Assembly: GCA_017428495.1 (NCBI GenBank)
Contig: JAFRQS010000026.1
Span: 72,372-136,371 of the forward strand
DNA: 64,000 bases
Direction of reading: 5' to 3'
DNA from: Bacilli bacterium
Lineage (GTDB): Bacteria; Bacillota_I; Bacilli_A; RF39; UBA660
A program made the translations under genes and the position numbers. Positions 19,860-33,300 of this stretch are shown here, piece by piece; the first letter of the stretch is position 1; every line of letters begins with the position of its first letter. Under the pieces are notes generated by a model that was not told the origin of the DNA, ran no database searches, and saw only the letters and a program-made list of their open reading frames with translations.

Positions 19860-20852
19860 TTATTTATTTAAATAATCTATTGCATCTTTAATATTTTTAA
19901 CTGACACAAGCTTAAATTTATAATTCCTTTGTTCCATAACTTTTTTAGCTTCATAGTAATTTTCCTCAGGAATAAAAAATAAATCAACTTTATTTTTGTG
20001 TGCTGCAATAATTTTATATTTTACTCCATCAATTGCACCAACACTGCCATCCAATTCTATAGTACCAGTACCAGCAATTTTTTTACCCTTGGTTAAATCA
20101 TATGGAGTAATGTAATCATAAATAGATAAAGCTATCATAAGACCACCAGAAGATCCATATTCATTTTTATCATAATTATATTTAATATCCATATCATACT
20201 CATAATTGCAAATTAAATATATTGATAATTCTTTTTTATTACTTGTATTTATAACTTCTATAAATTTTTCCCCATTCTCAGTATCTACAACAATCTTATC
20301 TCCAATTTCTTTCTTGTCTATATATTCTTTAATTTCTTCAAAACTTTCTATTGCTTTTCCATCTAGTTTATTTATTTTATCTCCTACTTCTAAATTAGTT
20401 TTTGCCTCAGGCGTTATATAAATAACATATATATTACTATTTTTAATATTTATTTTTTTATTTGCAATATTATGAGATACAAAATATGCATTAGAAAATG
20501 AATTATAAATCAATAATTTATCCCTTTTTCTTGCAGTTTTTATATTATCACTAGAATATTCTGATACTGGCACTGCATCTAAATTACTATTTATCTTAGA
20601 AATTAGATATTTCCATAAATCTGCCTGATATTCTTTAATAAAAGTTGTATTATAACTCCCTTGAAATTTATATTCATTATTTGCTGTTATTTTGCTTGAT
20701 AAATCAGTAATTCCACCGGGTGCTTCAATATAATATGGTAAATGTATATTATGACCCAATATAACTATACTCATAAATATAGTTGAAATAAGTATATGTA
20801 TCTTATTTTCTTTTATAAATTTTTTAATATTTGAATATATTTTATTAAACAC
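19860..20852 (-). CDS. ylbL: YlbL-like membrane-anchored PDZ/Lon-type protease
   Basis: 330 aa. One N-terminal membrane helix (about 17-33) is followed by PYYIEAPGG, typical of YlbL. A PDZ-like region (about 145-200, NLEVGDKINKLDGKAI) precedes a Lon S16 domain with the catalytic Ser in YGSSGGLM (S235) and the Lys in GVKYK (K278). In Bacillus YlbL is a membrane protease linked to DNA-damage checkpoint recovery. It is divergent from ylbJ, which is also nearby in Bacillus. Confidence 0.9.
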   Translation of the reverse strand: MFNKIYSNIKKFIKENKIHILISTIFMSIVILGHNIHLPYYIEAPGGITDLSSKITANNEYKFQGSYNTTFIKEYQADLWKYLISKINSNLDAVPVSEYSSDNIKTARKRDKLLIYNSFSNAYFVSHNIANKKINIKNSNIYVIYITPEAKTNLEVGDKINKLDGKAIESFEEIKEYIDKKEIGDKIVVDTENGEKFIEVINTSNKKELSIYLICNYEYDMDIKYNYDKNEYGSSGGLMIALSIYDYITPYDLTKGKKIAGTGTIELDGSVGAIDGVKYKIIAAHKNKVDLFFIPEENYYEAKKVMEQRNYKFKLVSVKNIKDAIDYLNK

Positions 20853-20893
20853 TTAACTCACCAAAATAAGTATAACAAGAAAGGATGTATTTT

Positions 20894-21832
20894 ATGAAAA
20901 AAAGTATTAATAATTTACTATTTATTACATTATTATTACTAATTTCATTTGAAGTTATAAAAGAAAATCAAATAGTAATCTCTTCTGTTAAGTTTTCTTT
21001 GAAAATTTGGCAAGAAAATATATTTCCATCTTTATTCCCATTTTTTATTATTTCTAATATTTTGATATCACTACATTTTCCGGAAATTTTGGGAGAAATT
21101 TTTAAAAATTTTATGCTTAAAGTATTTAAAATAAATGGCAACGCTGCTTTCATATTATTTTTGAGTATGTTAAGTGGTTTCCCTAGTAGTGCTAAATATA
21201 CAAAAGAATTATTAGAAAATAAATTAATTGATAATGATGATGCTAGTAAAGTTCTTACTTTCACACACTTTTCAAATCCTTTGTTTGTTATAAGCACTTT
21301 AAGTATGTTTATTGCTGATAATAAGATTATTGTAGCTGTATTATTATCACATTATATAGGTAATTTTGTGGTTGGATTATTATTTAGAAATTACAAATGT
21401 AAAAATTTCTTACCATCAAAATCAAATATATCTGCTATTACTACTTCCACAGAAAATTTTGGTATTATTATAACTAAAAGCATAAGTAGTGCAATAAATT
21501 CACTACTATTAATTCTTGGTACAGTTAGTACCTTTCTTATTATTACTACATTAATAAATGATATTTTTCAATTTAGTGGGATATCAAAAGCAATAATAAA
21601 TGGATTATTTGAAATCACTCAAGGACTAAAAAGTTTAGAGTATTTAAATATATCTCACTCTATTAAAGGATTAATATCTACATTTATTTTATCTTTTGGT
21701 GGATTATCGGTTCATATGCAAATATTAACAATAATCAGTGATACTAAAATCAAATATTTCCCTTATTTTATATCTAGAATAATACATTCATTTGTATCAT
21801 CATTACTTTTTTTCTTGTTAATTATGCTATAA
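20894..21832 (+). CDS. ylbJ: Sporulation integral membrane protein YlbJ (SpoVV)
   Basis: 312 aa with about eight hydrophobic segments. It carries the SGFPSSAKYTKELL motif and ENIFPSLFPFFIISNIL, hallmarks of YlbJ/SpoVV, a nucleoside-transporter-gate type protein of the mother cell needed for dipicolinate movement into the forespore. The ATG at 20894 is preceded by AAAGGATG; another at 20885 lies within that site. Position beside ylbL matches Bacillus. Confidence 0.88.
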   Translation: MKKSINNLLFITLLLLISFEVIKENQIVISSVKFSLKIWQENIFPSLFPFFIISNILISLHFPEILGEIFKNFMLKVFKINGNAAFILFLSMLSGFPSSAKYTKELLENKLIDNDDASKVLTFTHFSNPLFVISTLSMFIADNKIIVAVLLSHYIGNFVVGLLFRNYKCKNFLPSKSNISAITTSTENFGIIITKSISSAINSLLLILGTVSTFLIITTLINDIFQFSGISKAIINGLFEITQGLKSLEYLNISHSIKGLISTFILSFGGLSVHMQILTIISDTKIKYFPYFISRIIHSFVSSLLFFLLIML

Positions 21833-21909
21833 TACTATTTATTTTTAATCATTGATATTATGAAAATATTGGTATATAATATATATGATAAGAATAAATT
21901 GGAGGGCAT

Positions 21910-23322
21910 ATGATTAAAACTTTTGATTATGAAAAATTACCTATAGTTGAAGTTGTAAATGAAATAATGTATGATGCTGCCAAACGTGGTGCTAGTGATA
22001 TTCATTTTGACCCTGAAGAAAATGAAATGATTGTTAGGATTCGTATAGATGGTCAATTAATGAATTATACAACTATTCCAAATACTTTAAAGAAAAATTT
22101 AATAACTCGTATAAAAATTATATCTGGTATGAATATAACTGAAACTAGATTACCTCAAGATGGTGCAATTAAACAAACAATTAAAGATCAGAACTTAGAT
22201 CTTCGTGTTAGTGCATTACCTACAAATGAAGGTGAAAAAATAGTTATTCGTATTTTGGATTATTCTATGAGTTTAAAAGGAATTGAATATTTAGGTTTTA
22301 GTGAAAGAAACTTTAAAAAGATTTCAAAACTTATAAATATTCCTTCTGGAATTATATTAGTTACTGGTGCTACTGGTACTGGTAAATCTACTACAGTTTA
22401 TTCAATTCTACAAAAATTGAATAGAACTGAAACAAATTTAATTTCCGTTGAAGACCCAATAGAAATGAACATTGAAGGAATTAACCAAGTTCAAGTCAAT
22501 AGTGAAATTGGTCTTAACTTTGCAAATGTACTTCGTTCTGTGTTAAGACAAGACCCTGATGTAATAATGATCGGAGAGATTCGTGATAATGAAACAGCAA
22601 GAATTGCAGTTAGAGCATCTATTACTGGTCACTTAGTATTATCAACAATACACACTAATAACTCTCTTAATACTATTGAACGTTTGCTTGATATGGAAGT
22701 TGAAAGATATCTTCTTGCGAGTGCCTTAGAGGGAATTATATCTCAAAAATTAGCTAGAAGATTATGTGATAAATGTAAGAAAAAAAGACCTACAAATGAC
22801 TATGAAAAAGAAATATTTAAAAAAGTATTTGGTATGGAAGTAAATGAGGTATATTCTGCTGTAGGATGTGAGGAATGCGGCAATGGATATAAAGGTCGTA
22901 TTGCAATTCATGAAGTTTTACTTATTACACAAGAAATAAGGGATGCTATAAGTAATAATATGCCTAAAGATCAATTGCGTACTTTAGTTTATAATACTGA
23001 TGTTAATACTTTATTACAGGATGGTCTTGAAAAAGTTATAGCTGGATATACAACTTTTGAAGAAGTAGTTAAATTAATTGAGTTAGATGATGATATTGAT
23101 GATAATAGAGTCGCTGCTTATAAATTCAATTTAAATAAGGCTTTAGAACAAGCTGAAATTTCAAAAACAAGTAGAATTAATACCGAAGAAATAAAACAAG
23201 CTTTAGAAAAAGATGATAGTAATTCCTTATTTAAGGATAATCCATCCGTAAGTCTATTTAAAGATGATGCTGTATCAACTCCTAAACCTGTAATTGATGA
23301 TGTTGAAGAATTAGATATTTAA
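21910..23322 (+). CDS. Type II/IV secretion (PilB/GspE-type) assembly ATPase
   Basis: 470 aa. N-terminal GASDIHFDPEENEM, Walker A GATGTGKST, Asp box EDPIE, Walker B VIMIGEIRD, His box HLVLSTIHTNNS, and a C-terminal four-Cys zinc site (CDKCKK, CEECGNGYKGR). It would power assembly of prepilins such as those at 4561-7698 and 17855. It lacks the N1 domain of long PilBs and ends in an acidic tail of ~70 residues. No pilC, pilD or pilT is next to it, so the rest of the machine must be elsewhere. GGAGG precedes the start. Confidence 0.92.
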   Translation: MIKTFDYEKLPIVEVVNEIMYDAAKRGASDIHFDPEENEMIVRIRIDGQLMNYTTIPNTLKKNLITRIKIISGMNITETRLPQDGAIKQTIKDQNLDLRVSALPTNEGEKIVIRILDYSMSLKGIEYLGFSERNFKKISKLINIPSGIILVTGATGTGKSTTVYSILQKLNRTETNLISVEDPIEMNIEGINQVQVNSEIGLNFANVLRSVLRQDPDVIMIGEIRDNETARIAVRASITGHLVLSTIHTNNSLNTIERLLDMEVERYLLASALEGIISQKLARRLCDKCKKKRPTNDYEKEIFKKVFGMEVNEVYSAVGCEECGNGYKGRIAIHEVLLITQEIRDAISNNMPKDQLRTLVYNTDVNTLLQDGLEKVIAGYTTFEEVVKLIELDDDIDDNRVAAYKFNLNKALEQAEISKTSRINTEEIKQALEKDDSNSLFKDNPSVSLFKDDAVSTPKPVIDDVEELDI

Positions 23323-23323
23323 T

Positions 23324-23363
23324 AAAAAACTTGTTTCAATTATGAAACAAGTTTTATTTTTTT
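23324..23363. terminator. Bidirectional terminator between the PilB-type gene and FemX
   Basis: Twelve-base stem AAACTTGTTTCA/TGAAACAAGTTT (23327-23338 with 23343-23354), T-rich on the plus side and A-rich before it, so it can serve both convergent genes. Confidence 0.85.
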
Positions 23364-24616
23364 ATTTTTCTTAAATATTTATAAAATTTAAGCATCATAT
23401 TATATGTTGAATAATAAAATTTACTTATAATTAAATCAAACTCTCCAATTAATTCTACTACATCAGAATTAAATCCTCTTTTAAAATCAAACAATCCATA
23501 GTTTTCATTATCTTTACTGAAATTACCATCTATACCATAAAAATTTAATCTATCATATCCATTTTCCTTGGCATATTCAATCATTTCATATTGCATTAAA
23601 TATTGCGCTCCATAACCCATAAATTCTTTATATGATCCCCCGAATAAGTATACTATCTCTTTACCATAGCTTAAATATAAACCAGCTGCTATTGTAGGAC
23701 TAGAGCCATATAATTTAATATCTTCTTCTAACGCTTTTAATCTCTTCTCTATCGCTTCTATTTGAGAATTATATTCATTTACTTGATTTTGCTTTTTAAA
23801 ATTACTTTCAATATTTTTTATTCTATCTTTTAAATGTTCTATATCTAATATCATAGATTTCTTTAAATCATCCAAGTTTATACTTGCCAACATAATTCTT
23901 ATCATACCATGTTCTTTAAGTGTATTGTACATAGTCTGATAATATGACAAAGATCTATCAGAAAACTCTCTTCTTTCCGCTGTATGATTCATTATCTTTT
24001 TAAATTTTTCTATATCATCATAAGAAGCTACAGTAATTGATATACAATTTTTTCTACTTTTATTTATCATCCATCTAGTTGTTTGTCTCATTTCTTTTAA
24101 TAGTTGCTCAGTTGATTTATCTTTTAAATCAAGCACTGATATCCATCTAGGTTCTAAATCTTTTTTATCTTTAGCATCTTTATAAAATCCGTAATGCACA
24201 TATCCTAAAGATTTTAAATAATCTACCAATTTATCATTACCTTCTGATAAAGCATTACCATCTTTATCTCTCTTTATATATTCTATATATGGATTTATTT
24301 TTAAAAATATTCCTGAATTTGATTTTATATATGACTTCAATTGTTTTGTAAATTCACCTAATAATTTAAAATCATTATAATCAATTGCAAAACCTCTAGG
24401 TGCATAATACATCTTTTTATTAATTATAGGTAATTTCCTACTTAATAATGTAGTAGCTGCTACTAATTTTTTATTATCAAATAATCCTACTACATTCATT
24501 TCCCATCCAGTTTTAGATTTAAACTTTGCCCATTCTATACTTTGAAAAAAATTATATTTATCAATCTTCTTTATAAATTGATTATACTCCTTCTCTTCTA
24601 TTTCAACTAATTTCAT
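23354..24616 (-). CDS. FemABX/MurM-type peptidoglycan bridge aminoacyltransferase
   Basis: 420 aa. Two GNAT-like halves: FFQSIEWAKFKSKTGW at the start, YYAPRGFAIDYND, then TTRWMINKSRKN and, near the end, LYLSYGKEIVYLFGGSYKE and RLNFYGIDGNFSKDN. A coiled-coil arm (about 240-300) divides them. Such enzymes add amino acids from aminoacyl-tRNA to lipid II. It lies 50 bases after the second bacteriocin peptide on the same strand. A separate promoter-like TAAAAT lies between, so it may be a housekeeping gene; a resistance role is possible (see findings). Confidence 0.9.
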   Translation of the reverse strand: MKLVEIEEKEYNQFIKKIDKYNFFQSIEWAKFKSKTGWEMNVVGLFDNKKLVAATTLLSRKLPIINKKMYYAPRGFAIDYNDFKLLGEFTKQLKSYIKSNSGIFLKINPYIEYIKRDKDGNALSEGNDKLVDYLKSLGYVHYGFYKDAKDKKDLEPRWISVLDLKDKSTEQLLKEMRQTTRWMINKSRKNCISITVASYDDIEKFKKIMNHTAERREFSDRSLSYYQTMYNTLKEHGMIRIMLASINLDDLKKSMILDIEHLKDRIKNIESNFKKQNQVNEYNSQIEAIEKRLKALEEDIKLYGSSPTIAAGLYLSYGKEIVYLFGGSYKEFMGYGAQYLMQYEMIEYAKENGYDRLNFYGIDGNFSKDNENYGLFDFKRGFNSDVVELIGEFDLIISKFYYSTYNMMLKFYKYLRKIKK

Positions 24617-24665
24617 ACATTCACCCTATTCATATTTTACCATATAATATGACTTTTTACATTAC

Positions 24666-24821
24666 TTAACAAAATCTTTTTGTAACAAATCTTCTTATAG
24701 CACTTCCTATTCCCCTACCTATTTCATATATTTGACCAATCCCACGAATTATACTAGTAACTAATGCTCCTGGAATTGATCCACCATTTATTTCTTTTAA
24801 TTCTTCTTTTGTTAATTCCAT
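24666..24821 (-). CDS. Double-glycine leader bacteriocin-like peptide B
   Basis: 51 aa, too short for routine ORF callers. Leader MELTKEELKEINGG ends in the GG that C39 exporters cut after. The 37-residue core starts SIPGALV, is cationic (RRF, TKR) and contains GRGIG, a GxxxG helix-packing motif, plus the related GIGSA. It has a single Cys, the last residue. A perfect AGGAGG lies seven bases before the ATG. The leader is almost identical to that of the neighbour peptide; the exporter gene lies just upstream. Likely one half of a class IIb two-peptide bacteriocin. Alternative: a signalling peptide. Confidence 0.88.
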   Translation of the reverse strand: MELTKEELKEINGGSIPGALVTSIIRGIGQIYEIGRGIGSAIRRFVTKRFC

Positions 24822-24830
24822 AATCTCCTC

Positions 24831-24968
24831 CTAATTACATTTTAATGGCCTTGTATATCCATCAATTATCCCTGCTATAAATGATATTATTCCACCAAAT
24901 ATTAAAAATTTATATTTTAATATTCCCCCACCATTTATTTCTTTCAATTCTTCTTTTGATAATTCCAT
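24831..24968 (-). CDS. Double-glycine leader bacteriocin-like peptide A
   Basis: 45 aa. Leader MELSKEELKEINGG, then a 31-residue core of hydrophobic, membrane-active character with GIIDG (GxxxG) and SFIAG (SxxxG), ending RPLKCN with one Cys. AAGGAGG precedes the ATG. The TAG stop is nine bases before the next peptide's ATG. The gene starts ten bases after the stop of the peptidase-containing exporter, so the order is exporter, peptide A, peptide B on one message. The GxxxG motif in both partners is a hallmark of two-peptide (class IIb) bacteriocins. Activity is inferred, not shown. Confidence 0.88.
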   Translation of the reverse strand: MELSKEELKEINGGGILKYKFLIFGGIISFIAGIIDGYTRPLKCN

Positions 24969-24977
24969 AATTCCTCC

Positions 24978-26972
24978 TTAATTATCTATAGTTAATTTCT
25001 TTTCAAACAAACTATTACATTCTTTTGAATGACTAATATAAATAATAGTTTTATCAATATATGCATTCAATATATTTTTTATAATATTAAATTCATCTGT
25101 GTTCTCTAATCCACTCAAAGATTCATCTAATATCAATATCTTGCTGTTTTTTAGTAGTGCTCTAGATACTATTATTCTTTCTCTTTCACCAATACTCAAG
25201 TTACTTCCATTTTCTTCTATAATACTATTCAAATTTAAATTTCTATATTTTAATACTTTATCTAATCCTGTTAATTGCAATATTTTATTTAAATTTTCAT
25301 CATTATTATTTAAAACAATGTTATTGTATAATGTATCATTGAATAATTTTTCATCTTGAGAAACATACGTAATATAATTTGACACATCAATACTATTTAT
25401 TTCTTTTTGACCAATATATATCATATTATTAGTCTTATAATCTTTATTTAACAATTTAAAAATAGTTGATTTACCACTACCAGATGTACCTGTGATTAAA
25501 ATCTTATCGCCATCTTTTATCTTTAAGTTAAAATTATTCAATATATTAGTATAGTTATCATATGAAAATGTAAGATTTCTAAAATCAATATCATAATTAT
25601 CTAAATAATCACTATTACTTTCATCACTTTTATGAGCATATATTTCACTAACTCTTTTAATAGCATTTATTCCATTTTTTAATACTGGACTTAAATCACA
25701 TATATCTTTTAGTGGTTCTATAAAATAAACAATTAATGCATCAAATAATATCAATTCACTAAGTAATATAGTATTCTTATTTACTAACATAATTCCTAAA
25801 TATAAAAGTATGTTTATTCCAATGTATAAAATTAAATTTTTTATATAATTCATATTATTATACAAATTATTATATTTTTTATTAATATTGATGTTTAAAT
25901 TATAACTTTCTTTAAATATATCATGTCTATAATTTTTTAAATTTAGATTTTTAATACTGCTGATTAAATTAATATTTTCTAAGAGTACTTCATTCTTTAT
26001 TGAATTTGTTTCTTGATTCTTTTGAATTATTTTTTTTAATCTTTTATCAAATACTATTAATACTAAAAAATATAAGAAACATATCAAAAAAAATATAATA
26101 GAAAGCTCTAAATTAATATTTATTAATATTACAGAAGTAATGATTATAAGACTTAAATCTATGAATATAAATATTGGAAATCTTATTAGCAAATCTTTTA
26201 TATATTTTATATCTTCAAACTTGGTAATTATATCTCCAGAGTTCCTACTAACAAAATAATAACTAGGAAGTGATAACATTTTTAAATGCATAGTAAGAGT
26301 CATACATTTATCAACGTTCTTTTCTAATCTTATCAGAATTTTATTCCTAATAAATTCTATAAATTCTTTTAATAATATAATAGTAATAAAAAATAGAACA
26401 ATGCTTATAGTAGTAAATCCATCTATTAATACTTTAAAATAATGATTACTAACTAGGGTAAAAATAATTGAGAATATTGAGAGTAATATTATTAGTATAT
26501 AACTTTGTTTGTTTTTAATAATTATGTTTAAATAAGTTTTATAATTTTTTTCTTTTATTACGTCTAATTTTCTTACTGGTATTAACTCTATAATTATATT
26601 ATCCCATAATTTTAAAAAGTCTTTCTTATTATACTTTTTAATTCCATAATATGGATCAAATATAATTACATATTTAATAGTAAATTTGTATAGTACTACA
26701 TAATGATTATAACCATTTTCAAAAACTATATGGCATATTGAGGGTTTTATTATTTTATCTAATTCTTCATATTTACATTTTAATCCTCTAGCTTTAAATC
26801 CTAGTTTATTTGAGGCCTCAATTAAATTTAAAGCTGTAATACCTTTGTTATTGCACTTAGTTAAATCTCTAATATTATTAAAAGTATTGTCACCATTGTA
26901 ATATTTAATTATTGATAAAAGGCATGCTGCACCACAATCTTTTAAATTACGCTGATAAACTTTTTTATACAT
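24978..26972 (-). CDS. Peptidase-containing ABC exporter (C39 bacteriocin processing and secretion)
   Basis: 664 aa. Residues 1-130 form a C39 peptidase with Q7, C13 (QRNLKDCGAACL), H90 (GYNHYVVLY) and D106 (IFDPYYG), the full catalytic set. A six-helix exporter membrane domain follows (about 150-420), then an ATPase with Walker A GTSGSGKST, Walker B ILILDESLS and a signature reading LSIGERER instead of LSGGQ. It should cut the GG leaders of the two peptides downstream and export the cores. AGGAAGTGA precedes the start; a terminator isolates it from the gene upstream. Confidence 0.95.
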   Translation of the reverse strand: MYKKVYQRNLKDCGAACLLSIIKYYNGDNTFNNIRDLTKCNNKGITALNLIEASNKLGFKARGLKCKYEELDKIIKPSICHIVFENGYNHYVVLYKFTIKYVIIFDPYYGIKKYNKKDFLKLWDNIIIELIPVRKLDVIKEKNYKTYLNIIIKNKQSYILIILLSIFSIIFTLVSNHYFKVLIDGFTTISIVLFFITIILLKEFIEFIRNKILIRLEKNVDKCMTLTMHLKMLSLPSYYFVSRNSGDIITKFEDIKYIKDLLIRFPIFIFIDLSLIIITSVILININLELSIIFFLICFLYFLVLIVFDKRLKKIIQKNQETNSIKNEVLLENINLISSIKNLNLKNYRHDIFKESYNLNININKKYNNLYNNMNYIKNLILYIGINILLYLGIMLVNKNTILLSELILFDALIVYFIEPLKDICDLSPVLKNGINAIKRVSEIYAHKSDESNSDYLDNYDIDFRNLTFSYDNYTNILNNFNLKIKDGDKILITGTSGSGKSTIFKLLNKDYKTNNMIYIGQKEINSIDVSNYITYVSQDEKLFNDTLYNNIVLNNNDENLNKILQLTGLDKVLKYRNLNLNSIIEENGSNLSIGERERIIVSRALLKNSKILILDESLSGLENTDEFNIIKNILNAYIDKTIIYISHSKECNSLFEKKLTIDN

Positions 26973-27028
26973 GCTATCACTTCCTAATTAAATATTAGTG
27001 ATTTGTCCCTTCTTAACCTCTATATAAT

Positions 27029-27058
27029 AAAAAAAGGATATTATTTTTTAAAATATCC
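27029..27058 (-). terminator. Terminator of the UPF0316 gene
   Basis: Stem GGATATT/AATATCC (27036-27042 with 27052-27058) overlapping the stop codon, then seven Ts on the minus strand. It separates this gene from the bacteriocin operon. Confidence 0.8.
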
Positions 27059-27544
27059 ATTTTCTACATAATTTGTTTCATTTTCTACAATAAATGCCTT
27101 AGCATCTACCTGCTCAACTATACGTCTTACCTCACGTTCTTTTTTCTTATCAATTCCAATATAAAGCATATATTTAGCAGTTGTATTATACGCATTACAA
27201 TCAATTATAGTTACTGCATAACCAGCATCTCTTAGTATATCAGCTAATACAATATTTTCTGTAAAAACCTGAATTGCTATTTTACCTTTAATTAGTTTAC
27301 CTGCTAAAAATCCACCAATATATGTTCCTGTAGCGAATCCTAAAGCATATGAAATTGCTATATAAATGCTTTTATCATCTGTAGATAATGCCTCTCTTAC
27401 TACCAAAAACCAAATTAAAACCTCAATAAAACCTATTAATGCTGCTATTAATCTTTTACCCTTCACTGTAAACATTGTTCGAATAGTTCCCAACGTAACA
27501 TCTGTTATTCTTGCCAAAAATACTTTAAGACATAAAAAAAGCAT
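27041..27544 (-). CDS. UPF0316/DUF2179 membrane protein (YebE-like)
   Basis: 167 aa. Three membrane helices in the first ~85 residues (LARITDVTLGTIRTMF is characteristic), then a cytoplasmic DUF2179-type alpha/beta domain (IQVFTENIVLADILRDAGYAV). A conserved Firmicutes family without a firm function. Divergent from the gene at 27644. Confidence 0.85.
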   Translation of the reverse strand: MLFLCLKVFLARITDVTLGTIRTMFTVKGKRLIAALIGFIEVLIWFLVVREALSTDDKSIYIAISYALGFATGTYIGGFLAGKLIKGKIAIQVFTENIVLADILRDAGYAVTIIDCNAYNTTAKYMLYIGIDKKKEREVRRIVEQVDAKAFIVENETNYVENGYFKK

Positions 27545-27643
27545 ATCATCACCTCTATTTAGTTTGCCAAATTATTAAAATTATATTATTATTATAATAT
27601 AATATTATTAGATAGTAAAGTTTTATGTTTTGAAGGTGACAAA

Positions 27644-28168
27644 ATGAAAAAATATATTCCTAATTTGCTTACAACGTATAGGCTAATAACTGCTTTCCTA
27701 ATTCCGGTATTTTTCTTTTTAGGAAATTATAATACATTAGCAATTATGTTTATTATTGCTATAATATCTGATGCTTTAGATGGATATTTAGCAAGAAGAT
27801 GGAATGTAACTTCTAACTATGGAAAAATTGTTGATATAATTGGAGATAAAGCTCTTGCAATTATGGCTTCAATAACTTTTATAATATCTATTAATAATCT
27901 TTTTATTCTGACTCTTATACTTGAGATAATGATTATTCTTGTTAATTCTATCGATTATATAAAATCTAATAAAGGTTTAGAAGAACACTTAAGTTCTAAA
28001 TTTGGAAAAATTAAAACATGGTTTTTATTTACAGCTTTATTTGTAGGCTTTTTAAGCTATAAAATCAATTTTTTTAAATACTTACTATTTCCTTTAATTA
28101 TTATCACTGCAATTGCACAAATTATAACTTTTATTGATTATTTTAAAAAAAAGTATATTATCAAGTAA
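27644..28168 (+). CDS. CDP-alcohol phosphatidyltransferase family protein
   Basis: 174 aa integral membrane enzyme. The CDP-OH-P motif is complete: DGYLARRWNVTSNYGKIVDIIGD fits D-G-x2-A-R-x8-G-x3-D-x3-D. It transfers a phosphatidyl group from CDP-diacylglycerol to an alcohol; the acceptor cannot be read. A second, longer homologue of the PgsA type lies at 62963, so this one may make another phospholipid such as cardiolipin. GAAGGTG precedes the ATG. Confidence 0.88.
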   Translation: MKKYIPNLLTTYRLITAFLIPVFFFLGNYNTLAIMFIIAIISDALDGYLARRWNVTSNYGKIVDIIGDKALAIMASITFIISINNLFILTLILEIMIILVNSIDYIKSNKGLEEHLSSKFGKIKTWFLFTALFVGFLSYKINFFKYLLFPLIIITAIAQIITFIDYFKKKYIIK

Positions 28169-28179
28169 TATACTTTTTA
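28151..28179 (+). terminator. Terminator of the CDP-alcohol phosphatidyltransferase gene
   Basis: Nine-base stem AAGTATATT/AATATACTT (28151-28159 with 28167-28175) followed by TTTT. Confidence 0.75.
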
Positions 28180-29400
28180 TAAACTATTTTTTATGTCTGT
28201 TTTAGAAAATTTTTTAAAACAGATAATAGACAAAATTATTAAATATAATACACATATACATATTGATATATTCAAATTTTTATCATAAATTTTGTTTATA
28301 ATATTTGATGATATATCCCAGTGTATATTCATAAAGATTTTTAAAAATTTCATAGACTCCATATTTGAATATACTATTAATATCTTAGATGAAATATATA
28401 ATACGAATGAAAATAAAACTACAAATGTTGTACTTTTAGTAATGTTGTTTAAAAATATTATCATAAGTGGCAGTAATAATATCATTGGTATTTTTCCTAA
28501 TAATATCATCAGCATGTATTTGTATATACTATAAACTTGCACTGTACCATTATATATTACTACTGGTATTTTTAAACTTTGTAATCCAAAAAACATTGTA
28601 CCAATTATAATTTGAAATAAAAATATAAATAAAAATAGTAATATAAATATTATAATTGTTGTTATATACTTAGATAACAATATTTTTCTTCTACTACAAG
28701 GAAGTATTAGTAATTGTTTAATTGTTCCATGACTATATTCTTCAATTAATATACCACCACAAATGATTAATAACATGACAATTATTAATATTTCATATTC
28801 ATTAAAAAAATTAATTAAAATCCCTCTTAAATCATTAATTTTATTTATATCATTCTTAGTATCCAATATATACTTATTTATTTGTTCTTCTTCGATTGAA
28901 TTAGAACTAATATAATTATCTATAGCTTTATTTATATAATCATATCCATATTTTATATTATTATTTAATCTATAATTTAACATTTCTATATATTTTATAT
29001 TGTTTTTATTTTTTTCAATTTCATCATATACAAAACTTTTCCAATTATCCTCTTTAAATTTTTTTAAATATGATTGATCTTCAAAATTCAATATATTTTC
29101 AAACACATATGATTGCCATGAATTATATCCATATTGTTCCTTTATTCTATTTAATTCAATCATATACTCATATTCATTTATTTTTTCAACTGTGCAAAAC
29201 GTACAGTTTTCTATTTTATTTTTATATATCTCTTGTTCTTTTCTATAATCTATTTCTTCCTTAAAATTTCCTATATCATCTAGCTTATATTTATATATTA
29301 AATTTGTACCAATAATAAATAATAACATTATAACTACACATACATTTAGTTTTTTATTTAACATTTTTGATAATTCATTTTTTATAAGATTAATTAGCAT
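28177..29400 (-). CDS. ABC-2 type transporter permease
   Basis: 407 aa. One helix near the N-terminus (about 18-38), a long extracellular segment to about 195 with a CTFC pair, then five helices in the C-terminal half (IVMLLIICGGILIEEYSHGTIKQ is typical for ABC-2 permeases). It overlaps the stop of the ATPase gene upstream by 11 bases, with GGAAGTGA as ribosome binding site before the ATG at 29400. Similar pairs export or resist antimicrobial peptides; the substrate here is unknown. Confidence 0.85.
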   Translation of the reverse strand: MLINLIKNELSKMLNKKLNVCVVIMLLFIIGTNLIYKYKLDDIGNFKEEIDYRKEQEIYKNKIENCTFCTVEKINEYEYMIELNRIKEQYGYNSWQSYVFENILNFEDQSYLKKFKEDNWKSFVYDEIEKNKNNIKYIEMLNYRLNNNIKYGYDYINKAIDNYISSNSIEEEQINKYILDTKNDINKINDLRGILINFFNEYEILIIVMLLIICGGILIEEYSHGTIKQLLILPCSRRKILLSKYITTIIIFILLFLFIFLFQIIIGTMFFGLQSLKIPVVIYNGTVQVYSIYKYMLMILLGKIPMILLLPLMIIFLNNITKSTTFVVLFSFVLYISSKILIVYSNMESMKFLKIFMNIHWDISSNIINKIYDKNLNISICICVLYLIILSIICFKKFSKTDIKNSL

Positions 29401-30286
29401 AGTCACTTCCTATTGTCTCCAAAAATTTATCTTCCAAAGTTTTTAACTTAGGATATACTGAATATATATCTATATTACTTTTTACTAAACTTTGTATTAT
29501 TATTGGTATAAATTCCTTATTACAAATTACTTCAAATTTATTTTTTGAAATTATAATATTATCAAACAATAAATTTATATTGTCAGTATTAGATACTTCA
29601 AATATATATTTTATATTTCCTACATCACTTTTATAATCTTTTTCTAAGGTTTCTATTATTTTCCCATCTTTTATTATGCAAATTTTATTACATATGGAAT
29701 CTAATTCACTTAAGATATGACTAGATATTAATATACCTACTTTCTTATTTTGTAACTTTTTTAATACTTCTCTTAGCATGTTAAATCCTTCTATATCTAG
29801 ACCATTTGTAGGTTCATCCAATACCAATAATTTAGGATTATTTAATAAAGATAATGCTATTCCAAGTCTTTGTTTCATTCCAAGTGAATATTTTGATACT
29901 TTTTCATCAATTTCTTTGCTTAATCCAACTAAATCAATTATTTCATTTACATCTTTATCACTAATATTATATATTTTTGATTTTAATTTCAGATTTTTTC
30001 TGCCTGATAAATTTTCATAGAACGCTGGTGTTTCTACTATAGCACCAACTTCTTTTATTGCCGCAACATAATTTATATCATTATCAAAATTATTTATTAT
30101 TATTTTACCAGAATCTTTATGTTGCAAATTTAATATTAACTTTATTATAGTTGTCTTACCACTACCATTCATTCCAACAAATCCTACTATTTCACCAGCA
30201 CTTATATCAAATGAAATATTATCAATAATTTTCTTCTTACCAAAACTTTTGGTTAAATTTTCGCAATGTAAAATAAGATTGTTCAT
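29390..30286 (-). CDS. ABC transporter ATP-binding protein (BcrA/LanF-like)
   Basis: 298 aa. Walker A GMNGSGKTT, signature YSLGMKQRLGIALSLLNNPK, Walker B LLVLDEPTNGLD, and a C-terminal ~80-residue extension as in BcrA- and LanF-type ATPases of antimicrobial-peptide resistance. Coupled to the permease at 28177. It lies 2.4 kb upstream of the bacteriocin exporter, with two unrelated genes between, so an immunity role is possible but not shown. Confidence 0.9.
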   Translation of the reverse strand: MNNLILHCENLTKSFGKKKIIDNISFDISAGEIVGFVGMNGSGKTTIIKLILNLQHKDSGKIIINNFDNDINYVAAIKEVGAIVETPAFYENLSGRKNLKLKSKIYNISDKDVNEIIDLVGLSKEIDEKVSKYSLGMKQRLGIALSLLNNPKLLVLDEPTNGLDIEGFNMLREVLKKLQNKKVGILISSHILSELDSICNKICIIKDGKIIETLEKDYKSDVGNIKYIFEVSNTDNINLLFDNIIISKNKFEVICNKEFIPIIIQSLVKSNIDIYSVYPKLKTLEDKFLETIGSDYAN

Positions 30287-30308
30287 GAATCACCTCTATT
30301 TATATATT

Positions 30309-30344
30309 AAATAAAAAGTAATTAGTTACCTCTAACTAATTACT
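30309..30344 (-). terminator. Terminator of the PFOR gene
   Basis: Twelve-base perfect stem AGTAATTAGTTA/TAACTAATTACT (30317-30328 with 30333-30344), containing the TAG stop of the PFOR gene, then TTTTTATTT on the minus strand. Confidence 0.85.
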
Positions 30345-33300
30345 ATTTTCCATATTTTTATAAAATTCATATCTTTCTTTTACATCTTCTTTTAACTTTT
30401 TAAATAATTCTTCTGCTCTTGCTTCATTAACTATTTTTAATGCTTTAAATCTTGTCTCATTATCTATGAACTTATCTAATAAATCAAAATCAGGTTCTTT
30501 CATGTCTAAATTAAATTCCTTAGTTTTAGCATTATATCTAAATATTGGATAATATCCAGATGAAACTGCTAATTTTTGTTCTTCAATAGCACTTTCCATA
30601 CCACTCTTTATTCCATGATTTATACAATGAGCATATGCAATTATTATTGCTGGGCCATCATGTTTATCAGCTTCTATAAAAGCTTTTATTACTGCATTCA
30701 TATTAGCAAGTGACACTTGTGCTACATACGTATTTTTATAGCACATTGCTATCCTAGCTAAGTCCTTTTTAGAATTATCTTTACCATTCGATGTAAATTT
30801 AGCTATAGATCCTCTATTAGATGACTTAGAGGATTGTCCTCCAGTATTTGAGTAAACTTCTGTATCTAATATTAAGATTTTAGCATTATCATTTGTAGAA
30901 AGTATATGATCAATTCCACCAAATCCAATATCATAAGCCCAGCCATCTCCTCCAATGGTCCATATATTTCTTGCAATTATATATTCTTTCAAAGGCAATA
31001 ATTTACTATCAGTATAATCTATATTTTCATATACTTCTTTTGTAATATCATAATTATCATAATTTTCTAACCACTTATTAAATAAATCCTTATTCTTACT
31101 ATTTATTTCTTCTTCCATTATTTGTTTTATTTTAGCCCTATTTCTATTATATGAAAGTAATAAACCATATCCAAATTCTGCATTATCTTCAAATAATGAA
31201 TTAGCCCATGGTATTTTATATGGTATGCTTGGGAATGAAGCTCCATAAATTGATGAACAACCAGTTGCATTAGATATTGCTATCTTATTTCCAAATAATT
31301 GCGTTAATAATTTTATGTAAGGAGTTTCACCACAACCAGCACATGCACCACTAAATTCAAATAATGGTTTTTTAAATTGAGTTCCTTTTACTGTACTATT
31401 TATTTGATCAACTTTTTCAGTTACTTTAGTTAAATAATCAAAATTATTATTATCTTTTACTTTTTCAAATGGTTCCATTGTTATGGCACCTGATGGACAT
31501 ACATGTGAACATAATGAACAACCAGTACAATCTAATTTAGATATACCTATTGTATATTGATATTTTGATCCAATAGCTTTTCTTAAATTATCTTTTAATG
31601 ACTTAGGTGCTTTATTTACTTCATCCTCATTAAGTAAATATGGTCTTATTACGGCGTGAGGACACACAAATGAACATTGATTACATTGTATACACTTGTC
31701 TTTATTCCACACTGGAACATTCTCTGCTATACCTCTTTTTTCATGTTCAGTAGTGCCAATAATATAGCTACCATCTTTATATTCTTTAAAATCACTTACT
31801 TTTAATTTGTTACCATCTAATGAACTAATCATATCAAATACTTTATTATATTTTTTCTCTTTAGTATCTATAAATTCAATTTCATTAAACTTAATTTTTA
31901 TTTCTTTTAAATAATCTAATGCTTCATCTATAACTGCTTTATTTGAATCTATTACATCTTTACCCTTCTTTAAGAATCTTTTTTCAACACTTTCTTTTAT
32001 TTTTTCTATAAAATCATATCCTAATATATGCAATATACATACTTCTAATATTGTACTTATTTTATTCTTTAAACCATGCTTATTAGCAAGACTATATGCA
32101 TCAATTGCATAGAATTTGATTTTTCTATCAATTATTATTTTTTTTATATTACCATCTAATAAGTCATCTATTTCTTTTTCACTTAAAGATGTTACAAAGA
32201 TAAATGTACCATTTTTCTTTATATTAGATAGCATATCATATTTACCCATATAAGATTCTTTTGAACATACTACTAAACTTGGATTATCAATATAATATTC
32301 GCTTCTAATTGGTTTATCTGATAATCTTATATGACTTCTAGTAATTCCTCCACTTTTCTTTGAATCATATTGAAAATAGCCTTGAACGTATTTCTCAGTA
32401 TTATCTCCTACTAACTTTAATATATCCTTTGATGCACTTACCATTCCATCAGAACCATAACCATACACTAAAAATTCATCTTTTTGTTCTTTTGTGTGAT
32501 AATCTTTCACTGGTATACTTAAATTTGTTACATCATCTTCTATACCAATAGTAAACCCGTTAAATGAATTCTCTCCTAAAAAATCATATACTGCTTTTAT
32601 ATGAGAAGCGTTTGTATCTTTACTAGATAGTCCATATCTACCTCCTACTATTTTAGGTTTGGATTTTCTATCATTAAATAAACTTACTACATCCAAATAT
32701 AGTGGCTCTCCAATACTTCCTGGCTCTTTTGTCCTATCTAAAACTGCTATATCAGTTACTGTTTCTGGCAATACATCAAAGAAATACTTTGATGAGAAAG
32801 GTCTGTAAAGATGTACTTCTATCAATCCTAATTCATCATTTAAATCATCTATTACTTCCCTTATAGTTTCACATACTGATCCCATTGCTACTATTATTTT
32901 TTTAGCAGTTTTCGAACCATAATATTCAAATGGTGCATAATTTTTACCAGTTTTCTTATTTATTTTTTTCATATAATCATTAACTATATCTGGTAATTTT
33001 AAATAATCTTTATTTCTTACCTCAGCCATTTGAAAATATACATCTTCCATCATAGCTGTACCTTTTACTTTTGAATTTATACTCAATGCTTTATTTCGAA
33101 ATTCATTTATTTTTTTAAAATCAACTATATCAATAATATCTTCTTTTTCAAGAATATTTACTTTTGATAATTCATGACTAGTTCTAAAACCATCAAAGAA
33201 ATTTATAAATGGTAGACTAGCTTTTATTGATGATAAATATGATACTATTGTTAAATCCGAAACGCTTTGAACAGAAGATGATGCCATAATTGCAAATCCA

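Follow-up and report, generated by a model that had tools for sequence, protein, structure and literature searches.

A two-peptide export operon of class IIb plan, near-universal in an order of uncultured small-genome bacteria

Among described systems, the operon analysed here is closest in plan to the class IIb two-peptide bacteriocins, of the lactococcin G / enterocin 1071 type and the lactobin A / cerein 7B type (TIGR03949), with which it shares an adjacent pair of short genes, GG leaders, a C39 exporter, GxxxG motifs in both cores and a pair of helical peptides of which one is more amphipathic and cationic. Two-peptide bacteriocins are expected to be accompanied by a small membrane protein that serves as the immunity protein (PMC2806384). 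GG peptides and C39-type exporters also have non-killing uses: the gonococcal GG peptides of the Neisseria nap island promote autolysis, antimicrobial activity not being detectable (PMC11798529), and cell differentiation in Nostoc requires the C39-type exporter HetC (PMC10986499). The nap island was horizontally acquired and is unrelated to the present system, which looks vertical, and the HetC locus is likewise unrelated. Compared with class IIb, the present cores are unrelated by sequence, each peptide carries one conserved cysteine, the operon contains no immunity or accessory gene, and the system is order-wide and apparently vertically inherited.

In the window, meaning the whole 64-kb stretch of DNA that was analysed, the operon occupies exactly the coordinates of the preliminary description, on the minus strand and in the order exporter, alpha and beta. 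The exporter, a C39-peptidase ABC protein (PCAT) of 664 aa (24978-26972, minus), contains the Pfam domains Peptidase_C39, ABC_membrane and ABC_tran, with the peptidase domain matching PF03412 at an E of 1.3e-29. Its catalytic residues C13 (26934-26936), H90 (26703-26705) and D106 (26655-26657), described earlier as intact, are present and, like the core residues of Walker A and B, do not vary in 94-95 of 95 related exporters, and by the search used it is the only full-length C39-ABC protein of the window genome, a 1.24 Mb draft that is 93% complete. The two tiny genes do follow the exporter directly, with both intergenic gaps being 9 bp. Alpha encodes a 45-aa precursor (24831-24968, minus) consisting of a 14-residue GG leader (24927-24968) and a hydrophobic core of 31 residues (GILKYKFLIFGGIISFIAGIIDGYTRPLKCN), and beta encodes a 51-aa precursor (24666-24821, minus) consisting of a 14-residue GG leader (24780-24821) and a cationic amphipathic core of 37 residues (SIPGALVTSIIRGIGQIYEIGRGIGSAIRRFVTKRFC). 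The leaders, MELSKEELKEINGG and MELTKEELKEINGG, had been called near-identical and differ at one of 14 residues, the other 13 being the same. Alignment and column conservation place the GxxxG motifs at residues 33-37 of alpha (GIIDG, 24858-24872, minus) and 35-39 of beta (GRGIG, 24705-24719, minus). The strong ribosome binding sites reported for both genes are AAGGAGG for alpha (24969-24979, minus), overlapping the exporter stop codon, and AGGAGG for beta (24822-24833, minus), overlapping the alpha stop codon region, and they precede the start codons as AAGGAGGAATT-ATG and TAGGAGGAGATT-ATG. The genes had been placed below the length cut-off of most ORF callers; the minimum gene length of Prodigal is 90 bp, and alpha (138 bp) and beta (156 bp) are longer. 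Among the 168 window ORFs of 35-80 aa, the GG-leader pattern matches two, alpha and beta, which together with the presence of each in 85 of 86 loci rules out chance ORFs. The next gene, encoding a FemAB-family protein (23354-24616), starts 49 bp past beta, and a DUF5698/DUF2179 protein and a CDP-alcohol phosphatidyltransferase are encoded upstream of the exporter. A PilB/GspE-like ATPase gene (21910-23322, plus) lies convergently downstream of the operon in the window and in six related loci, and a SpoIIR-like ORF was read by eye in the window genome.

Comparison with curated families gave matches that lie in, or lean on, the leader for both alpha and beta among NCBIfam models. The window beta exceeds the cut-off of the class IIb model TIGR03949 (24.8 against 21.5 bits), with the match confined to residues 2-25, that is, the leader, and ten leaderless cores searched against curated families matched no bacteriocin model, in line with the earlier statement that neither core was recognised. 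PDB profile searches with alpha, beta and the accessory ORF of relatives (described below) returned nothing meaningful, the CtA leader peptide appearing at E 0.28-0.56. Adjacent genes for two different peptides, GG leaders with an intact C39 exporter and GxxxG motifs in both peptides were thus all found, whereas the cores showed no homology to any curated class IIb family; a cognate immunity gene was sought in the window operon and, with the profile of gamma, its candidate in relatives, in the genome, and was not found. With neither an immunity gene nor core homology, the pair is not classed as a class IIb member. A literature search returned no report of such a system in RF39 or mollicutes, subscription papers lying largely outside its scope; the system is one for which no prior description was found, and its cores match none of the curated families.

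The leader of the window beta also matches the pheromone VP1 weakly (E 0.031), and some of the GG peptides that C39 transporters export are signals (PMC7018657). One or both mature peptides might on these grounds be a pheromone sensed by other cells of the order, but no histidine kinase or response regulator, the sensor and regulator that a pheromone calls for, was seen by eye among the window ORFs of 20000-32000 or the recurrent neighbours in relatives, and two membrane-active-looking peptides with paired GxxxG motifs better fit membrane action, which leaves signalling a very unlikely role.

The operon is not an orphan, as the peptides are near-universal in the order and conserved across about 100 genera. 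Of the 291 genomes of the family, 247 contain an exporter match at E 1e-60 or better, and the beta profile matched 270 of 288 genomes (about 94%) and 97 of 102 genera of the order, for which the search returned one family only. Linkage was counted in 86 fetched related loci with at least 800 bp downstream of the exporter, and alpha lies behind the exporter in 85 of them and beta likewise in 85. In a class-wide sample the beta profile matched 51 of 54 family members and eight of 341 genomes outside the family, all eight by the leader part, and in a phylum-wide sample the matches outside the family reached profile position 41 of 55 at most; the alpha profile matched 34 of 38 family members and four of 258 genomes outside it, again by the leader part. 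A plasmid collection searched with the window alpha and beta gave no match for either, and phage records searched with the beta core of one relative gave none. Recent acquisition from a plasmid or phage was rejected on these two results. Exporters encoded on plasmids of Staphylococcus, Enterococcus and lactic acid bacteria show about 32% identity, and several of them adjoin annotated bacteriocin or accessory genes. Judged by these profiles, an entire order of uncultured Bacilli with small genomes, most likely the gut order RF39 (family UBA660), seems to count the peptide pair among its core genes, a distribution that points to a conserved task more than to a weapon under rapid change. The FemAB gene and the SpoIIR-like ORF fit this placement.

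Pairs of bacteriocin-like peptides are commonly regarded as patchy and fast-changing. The near-universal, apparently vertical and conserved peptides of this order look unlike a typical bacteriocin locus, although widespread occurrence is in principle possible for a bacteriocin too. In pairwise comparison alpha cores share on average 43% identity, beta cores 40% and exporters 37%. In alpha the conserved residues are an F, the GxxxG glycines, D, P and C, with column conservation of 97% (G), 87% (D), 98% (G), 97% (P) and 97% (C), and in beta they are the GxxxG glycines, two arginines and C, at 96% (G), 98% (G), 90% (R), 93% (R) and 98% (C); the GxxxG motifs singled out in the preliminary description therefore hold glycines that are among the best-conserved core residues order-wide. 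Most cores have exactly one cysteine, and both C-terminal cysteines are present in 86 of 88 pairs. Within genera, where dS is close to saturation, alpha has dN/dS values of 0.18-0.59, beta of 0.14-0.64 and the exporter of 0.22-0.34; dN/dS is below 1 in every within-genus comparison, and the peptide values are not lower than those of the exporter. Purifying selection acts on alpha, beta and exporter alike, with no greater strength on the peptides. Distances between exporters are correlated with those between alpha cores (r 0.42, p 0.0005) and between beta cores (r 0.32, p 0.0005), and for 20 of the 23 exporters that have a same-genus partner in the set the nearest neighbour is a same-genus exporter; vertical inheritance of the exporter together with its peptides would fit these correlations and nearest neighbours. 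One locus, L077, contains two tandem alpha/beta pairs, of which the second lacks the C-terminal cysteine in both peptides, which would be expected of cysteines that pair with each other. Two others, L054 and L128, have 0.85 and 1.4 kb of extra DNA between alpha and beta, and the L128 insert encodes 266 aa or more of a protein without family assignment.

The position of the locus is also recurrent, the rsmD-, ylbD-, yqeY- and yqfD-like genes and rpsU, ybeY and era being named by eye. In many genera the locus is located downstream of rsmD-like (26 loci) and ylbD-like (25 loci) genes and upstream of a yqeY-like gene (35 loci), sometimes of a yqfD-like gene, with rpsU often in between. A simple pattern found rpsU adjacency in 15 of 61 loci against the 35 with yqeY downstream, so this site is common, not universal, and in the genus of the window the locus adjoins DUF5698 and a pilB-like gene.

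The operon had been presented as complete, yet relatives often possess two further operon genes that are absent in the window. The first, an accessory ORF of some 145 aa whose N-terminus contains a hydrophobic stretch, lies between exporter and alpha in 58 of 86 loci, and 13 of 22 tested copies match the MAG1140 family (NF045999; best E 8.8e-6). An assignment of this ORF as an HlyD-type protein was dropped, as it has no Pfam support and MAG1140 is its sole family match. The second, gamma, follows beta in 45 of 86 loci (for example L023:4260-4424 and L127:9760-9915) and is a membrane protein of about 55 aa with a hydrophobic helix and no GG leader, which usually overlaps the end of beta and bears a C-terminal GRxxGTxIR motif homologous to beta. 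The motif-based choice of gamma being partly circular, any small ORF starting next to beta was also scored, and 40 of 73 exceeded 5 bits against the beta-core model, compared with 12 of 2441 background ORFs; the profile comparison of gamma with beta gave E 1.6e-8. The accessory ORF and gamma tend to co-occur (odds ratio 8.6, p 2.6e-5), and roughly half of the loci retain alpha and beta but no gamma. In the window operon no accessory ORF, gamma or immunity-like gene was found, and the gamma profile run against the window genome reached E 0.004 at best, through the hydrophobic stretch only; a gamma elsewhere in that genome was rejected since this best-scoring locus has no gamma-like ORF. In loci that have it, gamma may shield the producer by mimicking beta as a membrane-anchored protein. 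An ABC pair upstream of the exporter (28177-30286, minus), comprising a lantibiotic-protection-like ATPase and an ABC-2 permease, could be a source of self-protection. Its ATPase scores 215 bits against TIGR03740, below the cut-off, and the pair is upstream of the exporter in four of four species of the window's genus, all of which lack gamma.

Gamma bears on two of the readings of the system, which overlap in part, and the likelihoods attached to them need not sum to one. As an ordinary antagonistic class IIb bacteriocin, the pair would form pores as a weapon against competing strains and the producer would be guarded by an immunity protein; the operon plan, the GxxxG motifs, the TIGR03949 score above the cut-off and a small membrane protein behind beta in about half of the relatives, as for immunity proteins (PMC2806384), speak for it. 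This reading is unlikely, as the TIGR03949 match falls in the leader and the cores alone match nothing relevant, the distribution is near-universal and vertical instead of patchy, the window peptides have no plasmid match, and the peptides persist in about half of the loci without gamma, which was not found in the window genome. Alternatively, the peptides may have a non-toxic physiological role at the cell's own envelope or in contact with kin, such as remodelling, kin recognition or timed autolysis, and may never have been, or no longer be, a weapon. Core-gene status in genomes of roughly 1 Mb, the location among housekeeping genes, the persistence without an immunity-like gene and the precedents of the gonococcal GG peptides (PMC11798529) and Nostoc HetC (PMC10986499) favour such a role, while an anatomy close to class IIb and the immunity-like look of a gamma beside beta in about half of the loci tell against it, and we consider it possible but somewhat doubtful. 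In anatomy the operon follows the class IIb two-peptide plan, but it evolves like a core gene; of the earlier assignment as a class IIb bacteriocin, the two-peptide, GG-leader, C39 and GxxxG plan holds, and the near-universal, apparently vertical occurrence of the peptides and the lack of an immunity-like gene in the window operon count against the rest.

The physical character of the peptides supports, as far as prediction goes, an action on membranes. A transmembrane-like stretch is found in 99% of alpha cores, beta cores are cationic, carrying a mean charge of +3.4, and show a strong helical moment, and AlphaFold2 models of single chains, made from single sequences, are helices. The reading preferred here, which we hold to be slightly more probable than its negation, is that the window operon is the local version of a vertically inherited system that exports two peptides, and that these act on membranes as an alpha/beta heterodimer under constant selection. 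The C39 domain would cut both precursors after GG during ATP-driven export, after which alpha, as a hydrophobic membrane-spanning helix, and beta, as a cationic amphipathic helix, would pair in the membrane through their GxxxG faces, perhaps locked to each other by a disulfide between the single conserved cysteines, and the pair would permeabilise or remodel the membrane like class IIb pairs. Disulfide formation may fail in the anaerobic gut. Given that the cores stay constant and that alpha and beta are often retained where gamma or the accessory gene is missing, the target is more probably a constant one, for instance kin or sibling cells, the producer's own envelope or a permanent competitor, than a changing set of rivals. 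A bacteriocin-like pair in the core gene set of an uncultured small-genome order would offer a handle on a scarcely known cell biology and pose the testable question of what a conserved peptide pair does in an organism that retains few genes; gamma could be a case of immunity via a membrane-anchored mimic of one peptide, and the system warns that a GG leader and a C39 exporter are insufficient to call a bacteriocin.

A link with mollicutes is suggested by the exporter and the accessory ORF. The window exporter scores 296.7 bits against NF045998, the Mbov_0121-family model of mycoplasmas, below the cut-off of 500, and TIGR01193 is the better match; the mycoplasma exporter has a MAG1140-family neighbour (NF045999), the family that the relatives' accessory ORF matches, and common descent with the Mbov_0121-family exporter system is suggested. 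In mollicute-like families of the class the C39 exporters adjoin ybeY and era, and five of nine listed loci have a neighbour of 123-137 aa in the accessory position, of which that of L175 alone was clearly matched by the accessory profile (E 0.0003-0.0014). These positions suggest one ancestral exporter location common to the order and the mollicute-like families. In the exporter tree the order, the mollicute-like group and the lactic-acid-bacteria group are each whole, and with an unrooted tree and long branches this leaves common descent undecided. A fuller and rather unlikely proposal is that a secreted, possibly disulfide-linked alpha/beta heterodimer serves the normal biology of the order in envelope remodelling, kin recognition or programmed lysis, that the exporter's ancestor stood in a ybeY-era neighbourhood before the RF39-like and mycoplasma lineages split, and that gamma, as a leaderless membrane-anchored beta homologue, restrains the pair by mimicry. 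The GG-leader peptides of mollicute-like genomes exceed alpha and beta in length, differ from them in their cores and are unlinked. The unlinked GG-leader-type proteins observed in L163-L172 and L174 are about 78-130 aa long, and several of them share a GEIK...WDD-like stretch.
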